This document shows positions 3,575 to 18,679 of a DNA stretch of 64,000 bases, one piece after another. The notes beneath the pieces are model-generated. The model saw only the letters and a list, made by a program, of their open reading frames with translations. It searched no databases and had not been told where the DNA came from. A program made the translations under genes and the position numbers. Each line of letters opens with the position of its first letter. Position 1 is the stretch's first letter. Origin of the DNA: Turicibacter faecis (GTDB taxonomy: Bacteria; Bacillota_I; Bacilli_A; MOL361; Turicibacteraceae); contig NZ_AP028127.1 in the NCBI RefSeq assembly GCF_037076425.1, positions 1,866,501-1,930,500 of the forward strand, in the 5' to 3' direction.

Positions 3575-4993
3575 TTACTTACCACCTTTAATAATTTTTT
3601 CTTTTAGAGTATTTAATAACATAGCAATGATATTTTTATTAAAAACGAATGAATATATACTAGCAACTATTAATCCTAATAAGCACAGTTGAGGATTTTT
3701 AGTATAATAAATAATTATTATGATAATAATTATAGGAATACTAATTAATAAAAATCTTAAATCTAACCTTAGTTTAACATATTTTTGTATATCTATATAT
3801 CTATATATTGCCATAGCTAGATACGATACAAAAGTTGATAAAGAAGCTGCATATAATCCTATAAAATTTATTAATAATAAATTTATAACAATATTTATAA
3901 TTGCGGAGTATATAGATGTTTTAGCAATTTCGTCTGTTTTTTTTAATGCTACATAAATTGATCCTAACAATGATACTATAATATTAAAAATAGTAGCAAG
4001 CATCAATAAAGGAATTTGATAATATGCACTCTTATAATCTATTCCTGTTATGAAAATTCTAAATACGAAAGGCATAAATGCAATTATCAATACGCATAAA
4101 GCAGTAAATAACTTTACCGTAATATTCATTATATATGAGAAATAATTAGAAGAATCTTTATCATTAATATGAATAGACGCTGATTCAGCCCACGTTATAT
4201 TAAAAATACTAAACAAAGAAATACATACACTTGAAAATTTATTTGAAGCTGAATATATTCCGTTTAAAGCCACTCCAAGAACATATGTTATAATTAACCT
4301 ATCAGAAACATTAATAATCCACCAAGATAGTTGATTTGGAATTAATGGCCATGAATATTTCCAAAGAGTTATAAGAGTATTTTTACTAAAATTATTAATC
4401 TTTAAATATATGTATACCTTTTTCTTTATAATTATAAATAATATGCAAAATATATTAGCCATAGCAGTGGCTGTTAGCATACCATAGGCACCAAATTTAA
4501 AAAATAAGATAAATAATACATTTAACAATATTGTGCTTGCACCTGTTATAAGACTTCCTTGCGAATAGGTAATATTATCGCCTAGCCCTCTAGATATTTG
4601 TAATAGAATGTTTGCTGATGCTATAACAACTACATTAACAGCTAAGAAATATTTATAATCATTCTGAATATATCTGGCTAAAACAAAATAAATTAATAAA
4701 TATAGAATTGCTTGAATAAATACAATATAGCACGTCGTTGCAATAAGTTTTTTCTTTTTAGTCTCATTTTCTCGAGCATCTATTAAATATCTAAAAATAG
4801 CTTGATCTATTTGAAAAAATACAATGGGTATTAATAAAGCAACATAAGTATTCAACAAATCAACTGTACCATATTCTTCGGCTGATAATAAAGATGTATA
4901 TAGAGGTAAAAGAAAAAAACTGATAAATTGGGTGCATATCTTTCCTGCAGCAACTATTAATGTATTTTTAACCAATTTTTTCTCTCTTTCCAT
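3575..4993 (-). CDS. Polysaccharide flippase (Wzx-type), locus A
   Basis: A 472-residue integral membrane protein with about 12-14 hydrophobic segments and the N-terminal pattern KNTLIVAAGKICTQFISFFLLP, typical of the oligosaccharide flippase (MVF/MOP) superfamily. Such proteins move undecaprenyl-linked repeat units across the membrane. It is the last gene of locus A, starting 5 bases after the stop of the pyruvyl-transferase-like gene. Base composition is extremely AT-rich with many ATA and AAA codons, unlike the proximal genes of the same locus. No terminator is obvious after the stop. Confidence 0.88.
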   Translation of the reverse strand: MEREKKLVKNTLIVAAGKICTQFISFFLLPLYTSLLSAEEYGTVDLLNTYVALLIPIVFFQIDQAIFRYLIDARENETKKKKLIATTCYIVFIQAILYLLIYFVLARYIQNDYKYFLAVNVVVIASANILLQISRGLGDNITYSQGSLITGASTILLNVLFILFFKFGAYGMLTATAMANIFCILFIIIKKKVYIYLKINNFSKNTLITLWKYSWPLIPNQLSWWIINVSDRLIITYVLGVALNGIYSASNKFSSVCISLFSIFNITWAESASIHINDKDSSNYFSYIMNITVKLFTALCVLIIAFMPFVFRIFITGIDYKSAYYQIPLLMLATIFNIIVSLLGSIYVALKKTDEIAKTSIYSAIINIVINLLLINFIGLYAASLSTFVSYLAMAIYRYIDIQKYVKLRLDLRFLLISIPIIIIIIIIYYTKNPQLCLLGLIVASIYSFVFNKNIIAMLLNTLKEKIIKGGK

Positions 4994-4998
4994 ATTAA

Positions 4999-6090
4999 TC
5001 AGTCCGTTTCTTTTAATAATTTATCCAATTTATAAAAGTGTTGGTTAGCACTTTCTACTTGTTCTTTAATTTCAATTTTATAAGATAAATCTTGGTCTGT
5101 AATCTTTGTTATATTAAAATCCTCTAATTTTCTTATATCAAATATTTTACCTTTAAAATTCATATCTTTTAAAACGTTAATTGTTTTATCACTGTAGGCA
5201 ATCGGTATAATTGTTTTATTTAATTTTAATCCTAAAATATTTGCATGAAATCTTGTTCCAATAATAATTTTGGAACAAGCTAATTCATTAATAGCTTCAT
5301 TAATATCTCCTCTATAAAAGTGCTTTTTAATTTTATTTTTTTGTTGATTATTAAATTTTTTTATAATCCTTTCTATAACTTCTTCATCTCCTTCAGATTT
5401 ACAAAAAGACATTAATGTAATATTATAATCTTTTTTTATAAAATATTTTATTAATTCTATAATTTTATTTTCATATCCTATTTTATATTTTGGATTAACT
5501 TTCCGACAGCAGTCAATAACAGAAATAACTACCTTATCTTCTTCCGTTATTTTGATATGAGATAAATCCATAGAAAAAACTACGTCTGATGCAATTCTTA
5601 CATTATTTAAATCATTAAATAATATATATGAACTATTATCTCGAAAACAAACATCTTCTGCTTTTTTTATAATATTCTCTTTATTAACTTCGAGATATTC
5701 CTGTGTAAAATAAGGACCAAAGTTTGATCCTAAAATGTAATAAGGTCTTATGAATTTATAATTATAGTTTAAGTATTTACTTGAATTAAACTTTTCGGTT
5801 TCAATAAATAATGATCCGCCTATTATTACTGTCGCTAAATAATCATTTTTCATTTCTCTTGTAATGGATTTTTTTATACCCATTTTAAAGAAAAGCATAT
5901 TTATTACTTTAGTAATAAAATTTTCAAAAAAATATAAATTTAAATTTTTTTGTTTGAAGATATTTTTATTATATTTTTTTAATGAATATGCATCAAAAAC
6001 AACTTGCGGGTATCTTTCAGAGATTATCTTAATAAACAAATCATCTCCTAAGTTTTTTATAAGATAACCTTTTAAAAATATTTTTTTCAA
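4999..6090 (-). CDS. Polysaccharide pyruvyl transferase family protein, locus A
   Basis: The 363-residue product contains the family pattern NLGDDLF near the N-terminus, VIIGGSLF in the middle and GTRFHANILGL in the last third (the conserved R-x-H of the family). Family members transfer pyruvate from phosphoenolpyruvate to sugars; some relatives are glycosyltransferases. I chose the TTG at 6090, not the in-frame ATG at 6108. AGAGGAAG (6098-6105) sits seven bases before the TTG, and the product then begins MKKIF, as in the paralogue at 26449-27555. The ribosome site overlaps the stop of the preceding gene, which suggests coupled translation. Confidence 0.85.
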   Translation of the reverse strand: MKKIFLKGYLIKNLGDDLFIKIISERYPQVVFDAYSLKKYNKNIFKQKNLNLYFFENFITKVINMLFFKMGIKKSITREMKNDYLATVIIGGSLFIETEKFNSSKYLNYNYKFIRPYYILGSNFGPYFTQEYLEVNKENIIKKAEDVCFRDNSSYILFNDLNNVRIASDVVFSMDLSHIKITEEDKVVISVIDCCRKVNPKYKIGYENKIIELIKYFIKKDYNITLMSFCKSEGDEEVIERIIKKFNNQQKNKIKKHFYRGDINEAINELACSKIIIGTRFHANILGLKLNKTIIPIAYSDKTINVLKDMNFKGKIFDIRKLEDFNITKITDQDLSYKIEIKEQVESANQHFYKLDKLLKETD

Positions 6091-6104
6091 ATTAATACTT
6101 CCTC

Positions 6105-6983
6105 TCATTTATAATTTCTACTATAAATTTTCTCTATTATCTCTTTATCTAGATTTTCGTCGAATTTTCTAGCAAATAAGTATGGGGAGTTTACTAATTC
6201 ATTCAAATCTGAAGAAACATATACGTAGGGATTTCCTCGCTTCCAATCAATTGCTCGCATACAAGAAATATAATTATCATCATACTTTGAATAAAATAAA
6301 TTTTTTTTAAATGGGGAGTTGAATAAAATAGTTTGTAAAAAAATTTCATCCGCACTTTTAGTATTTTTAAAAGTAGTATATATAAAATTTTTTTTACTCA
6401 ATAAATATTCAGAAAATTCTTTAGTAATACTAAACCAATTAGCACCTGTCATAAATTTTAAATTATGTTTCTTCAATCTATTAATATTAATTAATTTTTG
6501 CAATGATATAGAAATGAATTCCAATAAATATAGTATTTTACTATTTCGAGAATATTTTCTAAATAACCAAAAATATTTAAGCCAACAATATTTTTCAATT
6601 GGAAGTTCTTCTGAGTAAAAATGAATAAATTCTTTATTCTTCGCTTCGTTGAAATAATTATATATAATTTCTGATTTTTTTAAAGGTAAATCAACACCTG
6701 ATAAAAGATGAAAGTAAGAATACTCTCCATTTTGTAGAGCTTTTTCTAATAAAAACAATTCACATTCAACTTGAGAGTAATCTGACCATCTAACATTAAT
6801 TTCCTTATATATATAAATTTTTGATACTTTTACAAATTGCGCTATTACATCTAAATTATTAATATTACTTTTTTTATCAACATGTATATATATATCAAAA
6901 TATTTGCTATCTAAAGATTTTAATAATTTTTCTAAAGTCCAAATATTATTATGAGCTATGATTAGAATTGCCTGCTTTTTCAA
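6105..6983 (-). CDS. Core-2/I-branching-type N-acetylglucosaminyltransferase family protein
   Basis: 292 residues. The opening AILIIAHNN, then DIYIHVDKKS (about 29-38), YSYFHLLSGVDLPLK and later MTGANWFSIT are typical of the 'Branch' family (GT14, PF02485). Bacterial members add a sugar to capsular or exopolysaccharide repeat units from a nucleotide-sugar donor in the cytoplasm. The donor and linkage cannot be read from the sequence. The gene belongs to the AT-rich part of locus A, 20 bases after the EpsG-type gene. Confidence 0.85.
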   Translation of the reverse strand: MKKQAILIIAHNNIWTLEKLLKSLDSKYFDIYIHVDKKSNINNLDVIAQFVKVSKIYIYKEINVRWSDYSQVECELFLLEKALQNGEYSYFHLLSGVDLPLKKSEIIYNYFNEAKNKEFIHFYSEELPIEKYCWLKYFWLFRKYSRNSKILYLLEFISISLQKLININRLKKHNLKFMTGANWFSITKEFSEYLLSKKNFIYTTFKNTKSADEIFLQTILFNSPFKKNLFYSKYDDNYISCMRAIDWKRGNPYVYVSSDLNELVNSPYLFARKFDENLDKEIIEKIYSRNYK

Positions 6984-7003
6984 TTACATCACCTCGTAAA
7001 TTT

Positions 7004-8101
7004 TTAATTAACTTTAATGTGAAATAACCAATTTTCATATGGCAAAACTTCACTATTATTACTCTTTAATTGAATTAACATGGGAAGAATCATAAGAAGA
7101 GTAAATATATAAATATATAATATTTTATCTTTAAAGAAACTTAAAATATAAGGAATATATATTATCGCAAAGATTGAGAAATAAACTTCTATCCTAGATA
7201 ATAGCATTATCTTTAACGACAATATCCCTATCAATATAGCTAAAGCATTTATGAAATAATAAATAAAAAGAGAATTTTCTTCTTCAATTTTTAATGTTTT
7301 TTTTCTCAATAAAATTAATATTATTATTTCAAAAATTATATATATAAATGTAATTAATATCTTCTTATTTTGACCTACTTCAGTTAATAAATTATTATTA
7401 AGATATAGTTCATAATGCGGAAATATTTGAGAAAAAATAGCGATGATTTTATCCAAAAATAAAGCAATTACAAATAAGGAAAATAAATATATATATAGTT
7501 TTTTCTTATTGCGTTTTATAAAAAATATAGGTAATAATGTAAAAGAAATTATTGCAGTATTATGAATAAAAGTTGCACATATACACATAAATATAAAAGG
7601 CAATTTTTTATTTAATTTTAAAAAATATAAAGAGTTAGCTATTAATAAAACAGCAATATATTGTCTAGAAATATTCATAGCACTGAAGTAGTGATAAAAA
7701 GACATAAATAGAATTGTTGGAAGAATTACATTTTTTTTACTATTATTATAAATAAATATAGCTGTTAATAAACAAATGACAAAGCTATTAATGACAATAA
7801 TCGCATTTCTATCATTCGAAAATAACGATACTAATTTATTATATAAAACATATAATATTGCACTATCTCCACTCTTCAATATATCCATAAAACTTAAAGT
7901 AGAGTTTTTAATAAAGATATTACAATATAGACTTGTATCAGTTCCTACATTCTCACTTCGAAATCCCATAATTAAAAACATTGTTAAAAAAGAAAAAAAT
8001 AAAAATATTTTTTTCTTTTTTAAGGATTTATTATTACCATTTATATAAATGAAAAAATAATAAAAATTTATCAGAATAAATACTAATATATATATGAGCA
8101 T
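7004..8101 (-). CDS. EpsG family polysaccharide polymerase-like membrane protein, locus A
   Basis: 365 residues with about ten hydrophobic segments. The segment FRSENVGTDTSLY after the second membrane span (the R-x-x-x-G-T-D-T pattern) and later NISRQYIAV are typical of EpsG family proteins, which are thought to polymerise repeat units at the outer face of the membrane (Wzy-like role). It is flanked by a GT2 gene and the Core-2-type gene. A second EpsG-type gene lies in locus B (31632-32693), so each locus carries its own polymerase. Confidence 0.85.
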   Translation of the reverse strand: MLIYILVFILINFYYFFIYINGNNKSLKKKKIFLFFSFLTMFLIMGFRSENVGTDTSLYCNIFIKNSTLSFMDILKSGDSAILYVLYNKLVSLFSNDRNAIIVINSFVICLLTAIFIYNNSKKNVILPTILFMSFYHYFSAMNISRQYIAVLLIANSLYFLKLNKKLPFIFMCICATFIHNTAIISFTLLPIFFIKRNKKKLYIYLFSLFVIALFLDKIIAIFSQIFPHYELYLNNNLLTEVGQNKKILITFIYIIFEIIILILLRKKTLKIEEENSLFIYYFINALAILIGILSLKIMLLSRIEVYFSIFAIIYIPYILSFFKDKILYIYIFTLLMILPMLIQLKSNNSEVLPYENWLFHIKVN

Positions 8102-8117
8102 CTAACTAACCGCCTTA

Positions 8118-9113
8118 TTATAAAAGTTTTTTCTTATTAAATTTATCAAACTTATTAGCAAATAATCCAAGAAAAAGAGCTATACTAGTAATTTTAAAAC
8201 TCTTAAATATTAGTCTTATTTTCCAATCACTAATAAATAATAAATCATTTTTAAAATTATCATTTTTAAAAATTCTTTTTACTAAAAAATATTTTTCTTT
8301 ATAGCTATCTTCTTTATTTCTATTATCAACAATATTAGCAATCCATGATATATATTGCTTTAAAAGATTTTTCTCTATATAACTTGTTTCATAATTATTT
8401 TCTTCGTATAAAAGAAATATTGCCCGAAATATTTTTAATTTTAATTCTCCTGCATTTTTTCTATACTTAAATCCTAATCCATTATTAGTTATTCTATATT
8501 TATATAAACATAAATTAAAACATTCTATTTTATTACAGTATTTTAAATAATTAATATTAAAAATTGCATCCTCACCTAAATTTAAATTTTCTTCAAATCT
8601 AATATAATTTTCTTGAATAATTTTGTTTTTATAAATTTTATTCCATAATTGGTTAAATAAAAGTTTAGATTGAAGAAACTCTATTACCACGTTTTTTTCT
8701 TCAGTTATAAAACCTTTCTCAATACTAAAATTTTTATTTGATGATTCAAAACATTGGTAGCCACAAATATCCCAATCGCAATTATTATCAGTTATTCGCT
8801 TTATCATTTCATTCAGATAATTTTTTTCATATAAATCATCTGAATCAATAAAACAAATATATTCCCCCTCAGCTAAATCTAATCCAATATTCCTACTTTT
8901 ACTTACACCTTGATTTTTATTATATATATACCTAACTTTAGAATCATTTATATATGATGAACAAATAATATCAGTATTGTCAGTCGAACCGTCATTTATA
9001 ATAATTAACTCAAAATTTTGGTAAGATTGATTTAAAACTGAGTTTATTGTTTTTTCAATAGTTTTTTCTGAATTATAAACTGGTAATATTACACTAACCT
9101 TATCTTTAATCAT
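8118..9113 (-). CDS. Glycosyltransferase family 2, locus A
   Basis: 331 residues with an N-terminal GT-A domain: VSVILPVYNSEKTIEKT, the nucleotide-binding IINDGSTDNT and the metal-binding FIDSDDLY. The C-terminal part is hydrophobic and basic, as in many capsule GT2 enzymes. It transfers a sugar from a nucleotide donor to the growing lipid-linked repeat unit in the cytoplasm. The start is supported by a GAGGTGAGG ribosome site. It is the first gene of the AT-rich block. Confidence 0.88.
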   Translation of the reverse strand: MIKDKVSVILPVYNSEKTIEKTINSVLNQSYQNFELIIINDGSTDNTDIICSSYINDSKVRYIYNKNQGVSKSRNIGLDLAEGEYICFIDSDDLYEKNYLNEMIKRITDNNCDWDICGYQCFESSNKNFSIEKGFITEEKNVVIEFLQSKLLFNQLWNKIYKNKIIQENYIRFEENLNLGEDAIFNINYLKYCNKIECFNLCLYKYRITNNGLGFKYRKNAGELKLKIFRAIFLLYEENNYETSYIEKNLLKQYISWIANIVDNRNKEDSYKEKYFLVKRIFKNDNFKNDLLFISDWKIRLIFKSFKITSIALFLGLFANKFDKFNKKKLL

Positions 9114-9233
9114 AAAACCTCACCTCATTTTCTTAAATAAAATCTCCATTCATTTTAGGAAGTGATTTAAATGAGACTCTTTTTAGGCAAACTATTATTA
9201 TGCCAAATATTAAGCCTATATATTCGTACAATA

Positions 9234-10355
9234 TTATTTTTTTTTCAATAAATTCGTATATTGAATCTCTATTTTTTGTGCTTCATTATTTATATTAAAG
9301 TTATTTTTTGTAATTTCATTAGTAGCATCCACTCTTTGGAAAAAACCAGTAAATTGTATGGTCTTATCAGCCCAGACTTCTGCTGAATTATCTAGCGAAA
9401 CAAATTGTGTCGTATTCAGAACTTTAGCCTCTTTTGTCACACCCTTTGAAAATAAACAAGGTAACCCTGAAGCTTGGGCTTCTACTCCTACAACTGGTAA
9501 TCCTTCGTATAGTGAAGGTAATAAAAATGTATCAAATACTTGATATAATCGATTAGCATCGTTTCGTTGACCCAAGAATAATACATTATCTTGCAAGTTA
9601 TACTTTCTAACCTTTTCTTTTATTTCTTCTAATTTAGGACCTTGTCCCAGTAATAACAACATTGAATCATTGTTTCGTTTATAAATCTCCCTAAAAATAT
9701 CTATTAAGAAACTATGATTTTTAGTCTCAACAAATCTTCCGATATGTCCTATTACTAATTTATCTTCACTTATATTCAGCTCTTTTCTAGCCTTTTTTCG
9801 CATTTCTTCATTAAACTTAAATTTATCTATATCGATAGCATTATTCAATAAGTAAACGTTTCCTTCGTTATATTCTTTATCCCCAAACAACCATCTTCCT
9901 GCTAACTCTGAACAACACATATAGTTAGTAGCAAATGTTTTTGAAAAGGGTCTTAGAATTTGTTTCATAAAATTCCTCTTCTTTTCTTTTTTATTAGTCG
10001 TACTATGACTATGGGCTATTCTAATAGGAACCCCGGCATCTTTAGCAGCTTTTAAAGAAAATACAGATAAGGTATTAATATGCGAATGAACAATTTTATA
10101 ATTACCTTCTTCTAAAACCCTTTTTAATTCTTTATGATATTTCATTACCTTTTGATATGGAGGAATAAGTACTACTTTTCCTCCCAATGATTCTATTTCA
10201 TCATAGGGAATATTAGTCGAGTCATCATCACAAATAAAATCAAACTGTATCTTCGTTCGGTCAATATGACGATAATAATTCATAACGACAGATTCTACTC
10301 CACCACCGATCCATTTCCCCATAATTTGTGCAATTCTAATCGGATTTTGCTCCAT
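9234..10355 (-). CDS. Glycosyltransferase family 4, locus A
   Basis: A 373-residue GT-B enzyme. GKWIGGGVESVVMNYYR near the N-terminus and VIGHIGRFVETKNHSFLID plus PSLYEGLPVVGVEAQASG in the C-terminal half are typical of EpsF-like GT4 proteins; the last contains the E-x7-E retaining motif. I chose the ATG at 10355, because AAGGAGG lies five bases before it. A further in-frame ATG at 10403 would lie inside the preceding gene. The locus B gene 33603-34709 is a close paralogue and also starts at this point. Confidence 0.88.
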   Translation of the reverse strand: MEQNPIRIAQIMGKWIGGGVESVVMNYYRHIDRTKIQFDFICDDDSTNIPYDEIESLGGKVVLIPPYQKVMKYHKELKRVLEEGNYKIVHSHINTLSVFSLKAAKDAGVPIRIAHSHSTTNKKEKKRNFMKQILRPFSKTFATNYMCCSELAGRWLFGDKEYNEGNVYLLNNAIDIDKFKFNEEMRKKARKELNISEDKLVIGHIGRFVETKNHSFLIDIFREIYKRNNDSMLLLLGQGPKLEEIKEKVRKYNLQDNVLFLGQRNDANRLYQVFDTFLLPSLYEGLPVVGVEAQASGLPCLFSKGVTKEAKVLNTTQFVSLDNSAEVWADKTIQFTGFFQRVDATNEITKNNFNINNEAQKIEIQYTNLLKKK

Positions 10356-10383
10356 AAAAACCTCCTTATAACTGATATTACTG

Positions 10384-11037
10384 CTAACTTGCATTTTCAT
10401 CACCGAGCATTGCCGGAATTGTTAATAAAATTAATTTAATATCGAGCCATAAATTACGTGTTTTAATGTATTCGATATCAAGTTCCACCCATTCATCAAA
10501 TCCAATGTTATTACGGCCACTCACCTGCCAAATACAAGTTAAACCTGGCTTAACAAGTAATCGTTGCATTTGATATGGCGTATATTGTTCTACTTCTCGT
10601 GGAAGAGCCGGTCGCGGTCCAACTAAACTCATATCACCTTTTAATACATTAAACAGTTGTGGCAATTCATCCAAACTTGTCTTACGAATAAACTTTCCTA
10701 CCTTCGTAATACGCGGATCATTCTTCATTTTAAAGGCAGGGCCACTTTGTTCATTTAAATGCATTAATTCATGAAGTCTCTCCTCTGCATCCGTATACAT
10801 ACTTCTAAACTTATACATTTTAAATGTCTTCGGATATTCGCCATTTCTCACTTGAGAGAAAAAGATTGGCCCTTTAGGATCTTCAATTTTAATGAGGATT
10901 GCAATGATTAACATCACAGGAGATGCTAATATTAATCCAATTAACGATCCAACAATATCCATCAGACGCTTTAATACAACATAGCAAATACTTGTCTTCA
11001 CTAATTCTTGACGTTGAATTGCTAATTCATTCTCCAT
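10384..11037 (-). CDS. Priming sugar transferase (undecaprenyl-phosphate sugar phosphotransferase), locus A
   Basis: 217 residues of the bacterial sugar transferase family (PF02397; WcaJ/EpsL type without the extra N-terminal membrane domain). It has one re-entrant hydrophobic helix (about 25-50), then KMYKFRSM, the catalytic Asp123-Glu124 in [20 protein letters not shown] and a C-terminal WQVSGRN. It starts repeat-unit assembly by moving a sugar phosphate from a UDP-sugar to undecaprenyl phosphate. A terminator-like hairpin lies between the kinase gene and this one. Confidence 0.92.
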
Positions 11038-11054
11038 CTCTCTACCTCCTAAAA

Positions 11055-11102
11055 TAAAAAAGGTAGAACTCTTAATTTAAGAAATCATTAGGAGTTCTAC
11101 CT
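11055..11102 (-). terminator. Hairpin with T-run between kinase and priming transferase genes (possible attenuator)
   Basis: On the minus strand GGTAGAACTC pairs with GAGTTCTACC across a loop of about 20 bases, followed by TTTTTTATTTT and, directly after, the ribosome site of the sugar transferase. It looks like a terminator inside the operon, so some read-through or antitermination would be needed to express the sugar genes. Confidence 0.75.
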
Positions 11103-11179
11103 TCATCTATTCTATCATTGAATAAATGGTATCTAATTTATCTCTCCCTAATTTCTTCTCTCTTTATTTAAATCCCAAT

Positions 11180-11896
11180 TTATTTCTTTTTCCCAAAAAG
11201 TTTTCGTTTCTTTTTGTTTTCTGCCCCTTCTTCATAGCTATAATATTGATAGCTATAATATCCTTTTTTTGTGACTGGCATCATCGTCATGACAGCCCCT
11301 AACACATTCGCATTAACTGCTTCGAGTGATTTAAACGCCCTTTTTCCAGCCTCAATTTCTGTTTTCCCTGAGGCAATCGCCAAAATCACCCCATCAACAA
11401 AGGTTGATAAAACGGCGGCATCCGTTACCAGGTTAACTGGAGGTGCATCAATTAACACCACATCATAATTATCACTTAAGATTTTAATTAAATCTTGCAT
11501 TTTTGTTGATCCTAATAATTCCGATGGATTAGGTGGAATTGGTCCCGAAGTTAGCACATTAATCTCACTTCCCGAAACCTTGATTACATCTTTTAATCCA
11601 ACTTGGCCTGCTAACACATTCGTTAACCCTTGTTGATTCGAAACCGCAAATACTTGGTGTACACGTGGGCGACGCAAGTCGGCATCAACAATTATCACGC
11701 GATTTCCCGCCTGAGCAAAAGTCTCGGCTAAATTTGTAATAGTCGTCGTTTTCCCCTCCGACATCATCGAACTTGTCACCATTAACGTCTTAATCTGTTT
11801 ATCAACACTTGAAAATTGAATATTTGTTCTTAACGTACGATAGGCTTCCGAAATTGGTGACTTACTATTCGTATGTGTAATAAGATCTAAACTCAT
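11180..11896 (-). CDS. CpsD/CapB-type tyrosine kinase, locus A
   Basis: A 238-residue P-loop kinase. Walker A is SSMMSEGKTTT (about 42-52), Walker A' is VIIVDADLRRP (about 67-77) and Walker B is VVLIDAPP (about 146-153). The tail has a tyrosine cluster, GYYSYQYYSYEE, the autophosphorylation site in this family. It works with the adjacent Wzz-type membrane protein to control chain length and export. It starts 11 bases after the end of that gene, with a good AGGAGG site. Confidence 0.93.
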   Translation of the reverse strand: MSLDLITHTNSKSPISEAYRTLRTNIQFSSVDKQIKTLMVTSSMMSEGKTTTITNLAETFAQAGNRVIIVDADLRRPRVHQVFAVSNQQGLTNVLAGQVGLKDVIKVSGSEINVLTSGPIPPNPSELLGSTKMQDLIKILSDNYDVVLIDAPPVNLVTDAAVLSTFVDGVILAIASGKTEIEAGKRAFKSLEAVNANVLGAVMTMMPVTKKGYYSYQYYSYEEGAENKKKRKLFGKKK

Positions 11897-11907
11897 CCCT
11901 TATCCTC

Positions 11908-12597
11908 CTACAATCCTTTAATATCAGGTATAGCCCCTAAAATTGGTAATCCTAAGTGACGTTCAATATCTGATGGCGTTTTGTACGTACGGTCTAAAAA
12001 CTCAAGAACGAAAACTAAACCAACACTTACCATCATTCCAAGCACGGTAGCAATCGCAATATTCATCACTTTATTAGGAGCTACCGGACTTTCAGGAACC
12101 TTTGCCACATCGATTGTTGATACACTATCCACTTTCATCATCTCATTAATTTCTTGTTTGAAGATTTCTGCTTCAGTGTTCGCAATTAAAGCAGCTAACT
12201 CCGGATCGTTGTCTTTAACTGTAATTTTAAAAATCTCTGTCGTTTCTACTTGAGAAACTGAAATTTTGGAATTTAAATCTTTGGAAGATAAATCTAAATC
12301 CAGTTTTTTAATCACCTTATCCGCGATACGATTACTTTTAATAATTTGCGAATAAGTTGTAGCCAGCTTCTGACTCATTTGTAATTGATTATAATCCATC
12401 AACGCTTCTTGATTTTGCTTGTAACTAACGATCATAGTTGTTGACGCCTCGTATTGTGGTTTTAGCAAAAAGAAGCTAACCCCTGCCGCCAATATCGCAG
12501 CGATTAACGTAATACTGGCAATCATTAGCCATCGTTTTCGTAACATTCCAAATATTTCACGCAGATCAATTTCGTACTCCGTATTCTCCACTTTCAT
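11908..12597 (-). CDS. Wzz-type chain-length determinant / kinase activator, locus A
   Basis: 229 residues with two membrane segments (about 20-40 and 180-203) enclosing an extracellular domain, and the Wzz N-terminal pattern YEIDLREIFGMLRKRW. The end, IERHLGLPILGAIPDI, is typical of Gram-positive CpsC/YveK proteins that activate the CpsD kinase. The ribosome site is ambiguous: GGGAG touches the ATG at 12597 and is better spaced for the GTG two codons later (12591). It is the first gene of locus A and has a leader of about 265 bases from the distal promoter. Confidence 0.9.
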   Translation of the reverse strand: MKVENTEYEIDLREIFGMLRKRWLMIASITLIAAILAAGVSFFLLKPQYEASTTMIVSYKQNQEALMDYNQLQMSQKLATTYSQIIKSNRIADKVIKKLDLDLSSKDLNSKISVSQVETTEIFKITVKDNDPELAALIANTEAEIFKQEINEMMKVDSVSTIDVAKVPESPVAPNKVMNIAIATVLGMMVSVGLVFVLEFLDRTYKTPSDIERHLGLPILGAIPDIKGL

Positions 12598-12639: not shown

Positions 12640-12648
12640 ATTATACCA
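12640..12648 (-). promoter_or_regulatory. Proximal extended -10 promoter of locus A
   Basis: On the minus strand TGG directly precedes TATAAT (12640-12645), about 43 bases upstream of the Wzz start codon. No clear -35 box is present. A CodY-like sequence lies just upstream of it. Confidence 0.5.
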
Positions 12649-12860: not shown

Positions 12861-12894
12861 ATTATACCTTATCATTACCGACATTTTCTGTCGG
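12861..12894 (-). promoter_or_regulatory. Operator-promoter module of locus A: CCGACA-N5-TGTCGG-N11-TATAAT
   Basis: On the minus strand a perfect 6+6 inverted repeat (12878-12883 and 12889-12894, five bases apart) ends exactly 11 bases before a consensus TATAAT (12861-12866), followed by AAG. There is no -35 box and no extended -10 box, so the repeat occupies the -35 region. The same arrangement with the same spacings occurs at 18646-18679. I infer a binding site of a dimeric regulator, probably an activator. Confidence 0.7.
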
Positions 12895-17604: not shown

Positions 17605-17665
17605 AAAGGATAAGAAAAGACCCCTTTTTGTTCACTCACAAAAAAGGGATCTTTTCTTATCCTTT
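17605..17665 (-). terminator. Very long hairpin after the lipoprotein gene
   Basis: AAAGGATAAGAAAAGA and its complement, extended by CCCTTTTT and GT, give a nearly perfect stem of about 26 pairs with one G-U pair and one bulge, and a six-base loop. The stop codon of the lipoprotein gene lies in the stem. There is no long T-run after it, so it may work by processing or RNA stability as well as termination. Confidence 0.65.
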
Positions 17666-18572
17666 AAAAAGCACCCCGTTCAAAATCCTGATCCTCATAA
17701 ATCGTTCCCTGAGCCTGGTAATCAAGATCATAAACTGTTAATGTTTGACTCCCAACGTAAAACATTCGCGTGTGATAGTCATTTCCGAACGGATAAACAA
17801 TATTGGAGATATAACAGCGTTCACCATTAATATAGGCATCTTTAAAAAAGTCATCATCTGGCTCTTCGTCCACGGCCATCCCCTTATCCAAAGAAATTAA
17901 TAGCTCAGTTACTTCTTCTCTCGAGTAAACTTTCGGCTCTTGTTGCTTTTTACGCTCTTCTTCCTGACGTTTCTCCTCAGCAAGTCGTTCTTCCTCGGCC
18001 ACTCGTTGGGCCTCCTGTTCATCAAGCGCTTGCTGTGATTTTGCGACTAACTCCTCAGCCTTTGCTTTTTGTTCACTTGTCGCATAAGGATTAGCATTCA
18101 CATGCTCACTCAATGAACCGATAACATGGGTAATCAACGTAGCCTTACATTCTTCATACTGTTGCTGGTTAAACATCTCTTCAGCCTCAGTTAAAACTTG
18201 GGCAACCTTATCTATTTCTGTTAAATGAGTTTCAATCTTTTCCTTTAGGACGTCCATATCCTCCTTAATTGTATAATCAGCATACCCTTTATCTAATTGG
18301 TCGATGACCTTTTTGGCTTCCGCAAATTTCTCCTCCGCTATTAACTGCGTCGCCTGAAGGTAAGTATCCACGATGGAATGTAACGTTTTTGCCTCTTCAT
18401 GTGATGGATTCTCTTCAAGCACCAATTCTAATGAAAGCAAGGCCTTTTCATACGCTTTCTCCTCCATCGCAATTTTTGCTTTTTCCATCGATTTTTTCAC
18501 CATCCCGTTCTCACATCCAACGATGATTAACAAGGCCATTAATAAAACAGATATAAACTGCTTTTTCTTCAT
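17664..18572 (-). CDS. Lipoprotein with TPR-like and coiled-coil regions
   Basis: 302 residues. The lipobox LLIIVGC ends at Cys20, so the protein is probably lipid-anchored on the outer face of the membrane. Helical pairs resembling TPRs (EKAKIAMEEKAYEKALLSLE) are followed by a charged coiled coil rich in Glu, Lys and Arg (about 170-215), then a small C-terminal domain of about 80 residues with GERCYISNIVYPFG. I do not recognise the C-terminal domain. The gene stands alone between a palindromic promoter and a long hairpin. The shared promoter architecture suggests co-regulation with locus A. Confidence 0.8.
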   Translation of the reverse strand: MKKKQFISVLLMALLIIVGCENGMVKKSMEKAKIAMEEKAYEKALLSLELVLEENPSHEEAKTLHSIVDTYLQATQLIAEEKFAEAKKVIDQLDKGYADYTIKEDMDVLKEKIETHLTEIDKVAQVLTEAEEMFNQQQYEECKATLITHVIGSLSEHVNANPYATSEQKAKAEELVAKSQQALDEQEAQRVAEEERLAEEKRQEEERKKQQEPKVYSREEVTELLISLDKGMAVDEEPDDDFFKDAYINGERCYISNIVYPFGNDYHTRMFYVGSQTLTVYDLDYQAQGTIYEDQDFERGAF

Positions 18573-18645: not shown

Positions 18646-18679
18646 ATTATACCGTATACCTTCCGACAATAAGTGTCGG
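18646..18679 (-). promoter_or_regulatory. Operator-promoter module of the lipoprotein gene: CCGACA-N5-TGTCGG-N11-TATAAT
   Basis: On the minus strand the inverted repeat (18663-18668 and 18674-18679, five bases apart) ends 11 bases before TATAAT (18646-18651), followed by AAG. The spacings are identical to those at 12861-12894, although the five-base loop and the 11-base spacer differ in sequence. No -35 box is present. Confidence 0.7.

Follow-up and report, generated by a model that had tools for sequence, protein, structure and literature searches.

Judged from sequence, the palindromes CCGACA-N5-TGTCGG that stand 10 or 11 bp before a consensus TATAAT in Turicibacter faecis are quite likely the operators of a homodimeric WYL activator, similar to DriD and PafBC, which would replace the -35 box and would probably respond to a ligand of nucleic-acid stress. 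Two of these sites (W1 and W2) are located in the window, i.e., the whole 64,000-nucleotide stretch of DNA that was analysed. The features discussed below are collected in Table 1.

The full sites in the window read CCGACA-GAAAA-TGTCGG-TAATGATAAGG-TATAAT-AAG (W1, minus strand 12894-12861) and CCGACA-CTTAT-TGTCGG-AAGGTATACGG-TATAAT-AAG (W2, minus strand 18679-18646), exactly as a first-pass annotation had described them: perfect half-sites, a gap of five, a spacer of 11, and differing loops and spacers. Its statement that neither promoter has a -35 box or a TGn was also correct, with the best -35 match at spacers of 15-19 being 3/6 for W1 and 2/6 for W2 and TGn in neither. When up to two mismatches were allowed, the window alone gave two matches, a count reached by 26 of 100 shuffles, and both real matches are perfect. 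W1 lies 263 bp upstream of wzz, the first gene of the polysaccharide operon of locus A, which we regard as an operon because its genes are on the same strand and the gaps are short. An extended -10 box, TGG-TATAAT (P2), lies nearer to wzz (42 bp before the gene) and has no palindrome; W1 would then mark a further start, a regulated one (P1), and judging from these boxes, the operon may have basal (P2) plus regulated (P1) starts, and the regulator may only add to wzz expression. W2 lies 73 bp upstream of a lipoprotein gene for which, when orthologues were sought for footprinting, no full-length match was found in any other genome of the family and only weak partial matches elsewhere.

Table 1. 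Features discussed in the text; positions without a genome or locus label are those of the window.
Feature	Location	Strand	Basis or remark
W1, candidate palindromic operator CCGACA-GAAAA-TGTCGG of wzz promoter P1, in the place of the -35 box	12878-12894	minus	sequence, genome scan
-10 box TATAAT of P1, 11 bp from the W1 palindrome	12861-12866	minus	sequence
Second, extended -10 box TGG-TATAAT before wzz (P2)	12640-12648	minus	read from sequence; promoter role putative
Polysaccharide operon, locus A (Wzz, AAA_31 kinase, Bac_transf, glycosyltransferases, EpsG polymerase, branching enzyme, pyruvyl transferase, Polysacc_synt flippase)	3575-12597	minus	Pfam
W2, candidate palindromic operator CCGACA-CTTAT-TGTCGG	18663-18679	minus	sequence, genome scan
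-10 box TATAAT, 11 bp from the W2 palindrome	18646-18651	minus	sequence
Lipoprotein gene downstream of W2, no Pfam family	17664-18572	minus	Pfam
HTH-WYL-WCX protein gene, the only WYL gene of the genome	G000 (T. faecis) 418933-419907		perfect palindrome at promoter, spacer 10
Tandem lipoprotein genes upstream of the WYL gene	G000, L134 4535-6631		
Dynamin-like GTPase, 121-aa ORF and HerA-type ATPase, consecutive and downstream of a perfect operator	L135 6672-12713 (G000 446671 onward)		LeoA-like and HerA models
Previously unlisted sRNA, ~160 nt, with terminator	G000 940655-940831; G001 248448-248621; G003 C134 32699-32876 (L144/L145/L146 1501-1677)		
Phage promoter of similar type	L147 2787-2819, 3582-3614; L148 12103-12135; L149 536-568; L150 6777-6809; L152 6189-6221; L153 3003-3035, 11068-11100		

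A scan of the genome (2,431,147 bp, one contig) resulted in four perfect palindromes compared with 0.028 expected by composition, and a reversed-control palindrome was found nowhere in it. Each of the four is followed at 10 or 11 bp by a perfect TATAAT (approximately 0.0001 such pairs expected), and all lie in intergenic DNA and face a gene in the right orientation; none falls in a coding region, where the first-pass annotation had foreseen many matches if the palindrome had no link to promoters. The other two perfect sites precede the gene of the genome's only WYL-domain regulator and an operon encoding dynamin-like and HerA-type proteins (spacer 11). The earlier claim of a spacer of exactly 11 thus holds for three of the four sites and fails at the WYL gene, where it is 10. 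Similarly, the proposed link to envelope genes stands for the wzz operon and the lipoproteins, but the sites also serve the regulator gene, the dynamin/HerA operon and a small RNA (sRNA). Allowing up to two mismatches at a spacer of 10 added CCGACG-AAATT-TGACGG, before the lipoprotein gene that immediately precedes the WYL gene, and, in front of the sRNA at 940638, ACGACA-AAATA-TGTGGG. Most two-mismatch matches in the genome were one repeated sequence (GCGAAATTCCTTGTCGG), which probably comes from rRNA operons, and were set aside as not relevant. The regulon listed here is one of near-perfect sites, and weaker or half-site promoters would escape the scan.

The dynamin/HerA operon, a candidate defence operon, lies 27 kb from the WYL gene, which itself adjoins lipoprotein genes. 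The dynamin promoter has a TGn and may therefore not need an activator; in G005, which has no WYL gene, no palindrome was found near a dynamin homologue of 48% identity. Just upstream of the WYL gene, the lipoprotein genes form a tandem pair of related appearance in T. faecis; G003 has one copy at the corresponding position.

The N10/N11 spacing was found in nine promoters of three species, all of them without a -35 box, and the best -35 match of palindrome promoters averaged 2.2/6 compared with 3.0 for random sequence. With TATAAT set at -12 to -7, the centre of the palindrome coincides with the -35 hexamer. The closest precedent is DriD of Caulobacter crescentus, a homodimeric HTH-WYL-WCX activator whose operator, ATACGAC-N7-GTCGTAT, lies over the -35 at a fixed distance from the -10, with its HTHs binding on either side of the -35 and sandwiching sigma region 4 (PMC12340889). 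The DriD core CGAC-N7-GTCG is that of Turicibacter, where all four perfect sites read CCGAC-N7-GTCGG, and its constant distance from the -10 at promoters with a poor -35 is comparable to the N10/N11 spacing here. However, the two proteins share only ~19% identity and belong to different phyla, the Turicibacter flanks are C/G instead of ATA/TAT, and DriD targets didA, bapE, recJ and dnaG, whereas the Turicibacter sites stand before genes of the envelope, defence-like genes and an sRNA.

The mycobacterial PafBC promoter, tTGTCRgtg-N8-TannnT (PMC5656591), works by sigma adaptation and does not need a -35 (PMC11804915). Its -26 element, TGTCRG-N10-TAnnnT, is identical in right half and spacing to the N10 sites, the N11 sites being one base longer; likewise, at the PafBC P1/RecA-NDp promoter 10 bp separate TGTCRG from the -10 and the -35 is dispensable (PMC5656591, PMC11804915). 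PafBC is a heterodimer of two paralogous subunits with a non-palindromic motif, whereas Turicibacter has a single WYL gene and a perfect palindrome; the Turicibacter protein would resemble PafBC in its mode of action without being one. A further similar case is SiwR of Mycobacterium smegmatis, a homodimeric WYL activator with a palindrome in the -26/-35 region and its own gene adjoining (PMC10693628), although that palindrome is an imperfect one of 19 bp with a GGA triplet and its targets are dinB-like genes.

The Turicibacter protein has HTH, WYL and WCX in one chain, which places it among the WYL-domain transcription regulators; the Pfam matches to WYL (2e-7) and WCX (1e-5) are both over the cut-off, and those to HTH_11 and HTH_PafC are weak. 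The AlphaFold model of the 86%-identical orthologue from G003 (pLDDT 87) comprises a winged HTH, a WYL Sm-fold and a WCX domain. Foldseek placed DriD structures at the top of its matches (8tp8, 9pfv and 8tpk, E 6e-15 to 2e-14), and among solved structures DriD, both bound to DNA and in complex with RNAP, was the nearest, followed by PafBC and after it by BrxR and CapW. The VIA comparison of the model with DriD gave Z 14.4 over 298 residues with an rmsd of 15.2, a large value that is consistent with domains hinged differently, and Z 13.5 with an rmsd of 4.5 for the C-terminal domains alone. A sequence search of the PDB with close orthologues alone returned nothing, and a wider profile returned PafBC and DriD. 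The recognition helix, DSRTFERDIATLR (SRTFERDIATLR), matches PafB AFSRMFERDKNELR (SRMFERDKNELR), and its core is SRTFERD compared with SRMFERD in PafB. The aligned helix of DriD, GRRTAERMRD, shares the pattern R-T-x-E-R. In PafB, R44 and R48 are outward-facing arginines (PMC6789036). Furthermore, the R-x-D-R stretch of the WYL domain is conserved, with R204, D206 and R207 invariant in 31 homologues and aligned with DriD.

From the position and core of the operator, the PafBC-like half-site, the fold, the recognition helix and the R-x-D-R stretch, we infer a homodimeric, autoregulated activator that would bind these sites, activate rather than repress, and replace the -35 contact. Each half of CCGAC-N7-GTCGG would carry one HTH of the WYL homodimer, which would span the -35 position used by sigma-A RNA polymerase, and the bound dimer would let the polymerase use promoters with a consensus -10 and no -35 by sigma adaptation, as in DriD and PafBC. 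Its WYL domain would probably sense a nucleic-acid ligand derived from stress, for which ssDNA is a candidate by extrapolation from DriD, PafBC and SiwR. The targets would be its own gene, the wzz polysaccharide operon (through the extra upstream promoter), two lipoproteins, the dynamin-like/HerA operon and the sRNA.

BrxR and CapW, which are HTH-WYL regulators linked to defence systems and are among the fold matches, are repressors. The same WYL protein might therefore act as they do, its dimer covering the -35 and blocking the polymerase until a ligand releases it, and an operator over the -35 would indeed block sterically, while a site at the protein's own gene fits negative autoregulation. 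We consider this unlikely, since repressed promoters normally have a usable -35 and none is present here, geometry and operator core match those of the activators DriD and PafBC, and both of these rank above BrxR and CapW in Foldseek, the latter having lower structural similarity to the model.

The distribution of the sites among relatives bears on whether this WYL protein is their owner. The sample was eight genomes of the family, T. faecis (G000) included, and an orthologue of the WYL gene (63-86% identity) was found in G000, G001 and G003 only. Perfect palindromes were restricted to the same three genomes (four, one and one, respectively; Fisher p=0.018), and the other five, one of them only 75% complete, had neither palindrome nor orthologous WYL gene nor sRNA. 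Because only three species carry the system, this co-occurrence rests on few independent events. Two congeners with a WYL homologue of only 33-35% identity have a different recognition helix (NKSIQRDIEHLR-type) and no palindrome. In all three genomes that carry both, the site adjoins the WYL gene. In G003 it precedes the gene at the same spacing, and the promoter alignment of G000 and G003 keeps CCGACAAATT-N-TGTCGG and the -10; in G001 the site is 16 bp after the WYL stop, in front of the sRNA, and none precedes the WYL gene itself. A different dimeric regulator could own the sites and also control the WYL gene, given that WYL autoregulation is read from adjacency alone, but this is improbable in view of sites that accompany the orthologue in 3/3 genomes and are absent from the 5/5 genomes without it, that adjoin the gene in each case, and that match DriD and PafB in operator and recognition helix.

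Beyond these species, phage and plasmid records contained only distant WYL homologues. At 80 WYL loci of other Bacillota (one of Turicibacter, the rest 30-38% identical), CGAC-N7-GTCG was present twice compared with 2.9 expected, one of the two being the Turicibacter site, and PafBC-like half-promoters showed no excess (20 compared with 18 expected). Nearly all recognition helices at these loci are of the form K/R-S/T-I-Q-RDI and not RTFERDI. Given no excess and differing helices, the operator is not common to the wider family, and generalising it to other Bacillota was rejected.

A repeated promoter of similar type, CCCCCGACA-N5-TGTCGGGGGTATATGG-TATAATA, with the same N10 spacing, was observed on AT-rich IMG/VR phage contigs, several of which carry a T4-like cobS, closest to Pelagibacter/Synechococcus phages. 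No WYL protein was found on these contigs, so the likeness may reflect convergence or reliance on a regulator of the host.

Downstream of the G001 site and of the degenerate G000 site at 940638 there is no ORF but a conserved stretch of ~160 nt with a rho-independent terminator at its end. It outperforms shuffled sequences in folding (z -3.2 and -4.4), and a covariance model built without the palindrome matched only G000, G001 and G003 among the genomes of the order that were searched, i.e., the genomes with the WYL gene. The G003 copy, found blind to the operator, is preceded by ACGACA-AAATA-TGTAGA-N10-TATACT, with a degenerate right half (TGTAGA). Across the three species the sRNA promoters keep CGACAAAAT-N-TGT and the -10, and the 10-bp spacer has diverged. 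Conserved blocks of the sRNA are GUAAGGGAA, UGGGUAG-N-UGU and GUUCUUCG; its structure is tentative because covariation support is slight. A 6-codon ORF in the sRNA (MW-xx-xF) was not retained, its start codon being absent from the third species. Rfam gave no family match to the window or the sRNA loci, and no copy of the sRNA was found in the 64-kb window. W2 scores on the plus strand as a weak terminator-like hairpin, but chance palindromes or bidirectional terminator hairpins near accidental -10-like boxes are refuted statistically by the excess over expectation and the fixed TATAAT distance, W1 is followed by no T-run, and the sites are conserved across species while loops and spacers diverged. 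Taken together, the genome scan, phylogenetic co-occurrence and footprinting support the view, first taken from the two window sites, of a dimeric regulator site tied to promoters.

In the open-access papers searched, neither Turicibacter nor exopolysaccharide promoters were linked to a WYL activator, in agreement with the first-pass annotation, which knew of no regulator with this site at such promoters; the class of regulator can nevertheless be named (WYL activators of the DriD/SiwR/PafBC type), which gives the architecture a precedent. Systems of this kind are known, and what appears to be new is the individual member with its regulon and the sRNA. WYL regulators are widespread, and promoters are known for only a handful of activators (PafBC, DriD and SiwR), to which this case would add a gut commensal of the Bacillota whose regulon is compact and testable and whose operator can be read. 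In our comparison, recognition helices of the pattern R-x-x-E-R also seem to accompany GTCG half-sites located at -35, a pairing that could help to predict WYL regulons elsewhere. It is possible, and we offer it as a tentative reading, that a one-protein, sigma-adapting WYL switch jointly turns on surface polysaccharide, lipoproteins, the dynamin/HerA defence operon and the sRNA when phage attack, DNA damage or a similar event causes nucleic-acid stress. If true, the Bacillota would have their first regulon of this kind, with a WYL activator connected for the first time to exopolysaccharide and an sRNA, and capsule-type polysaccharide expression and a new sRNA would be tied to the proposed stress-sensing switch.
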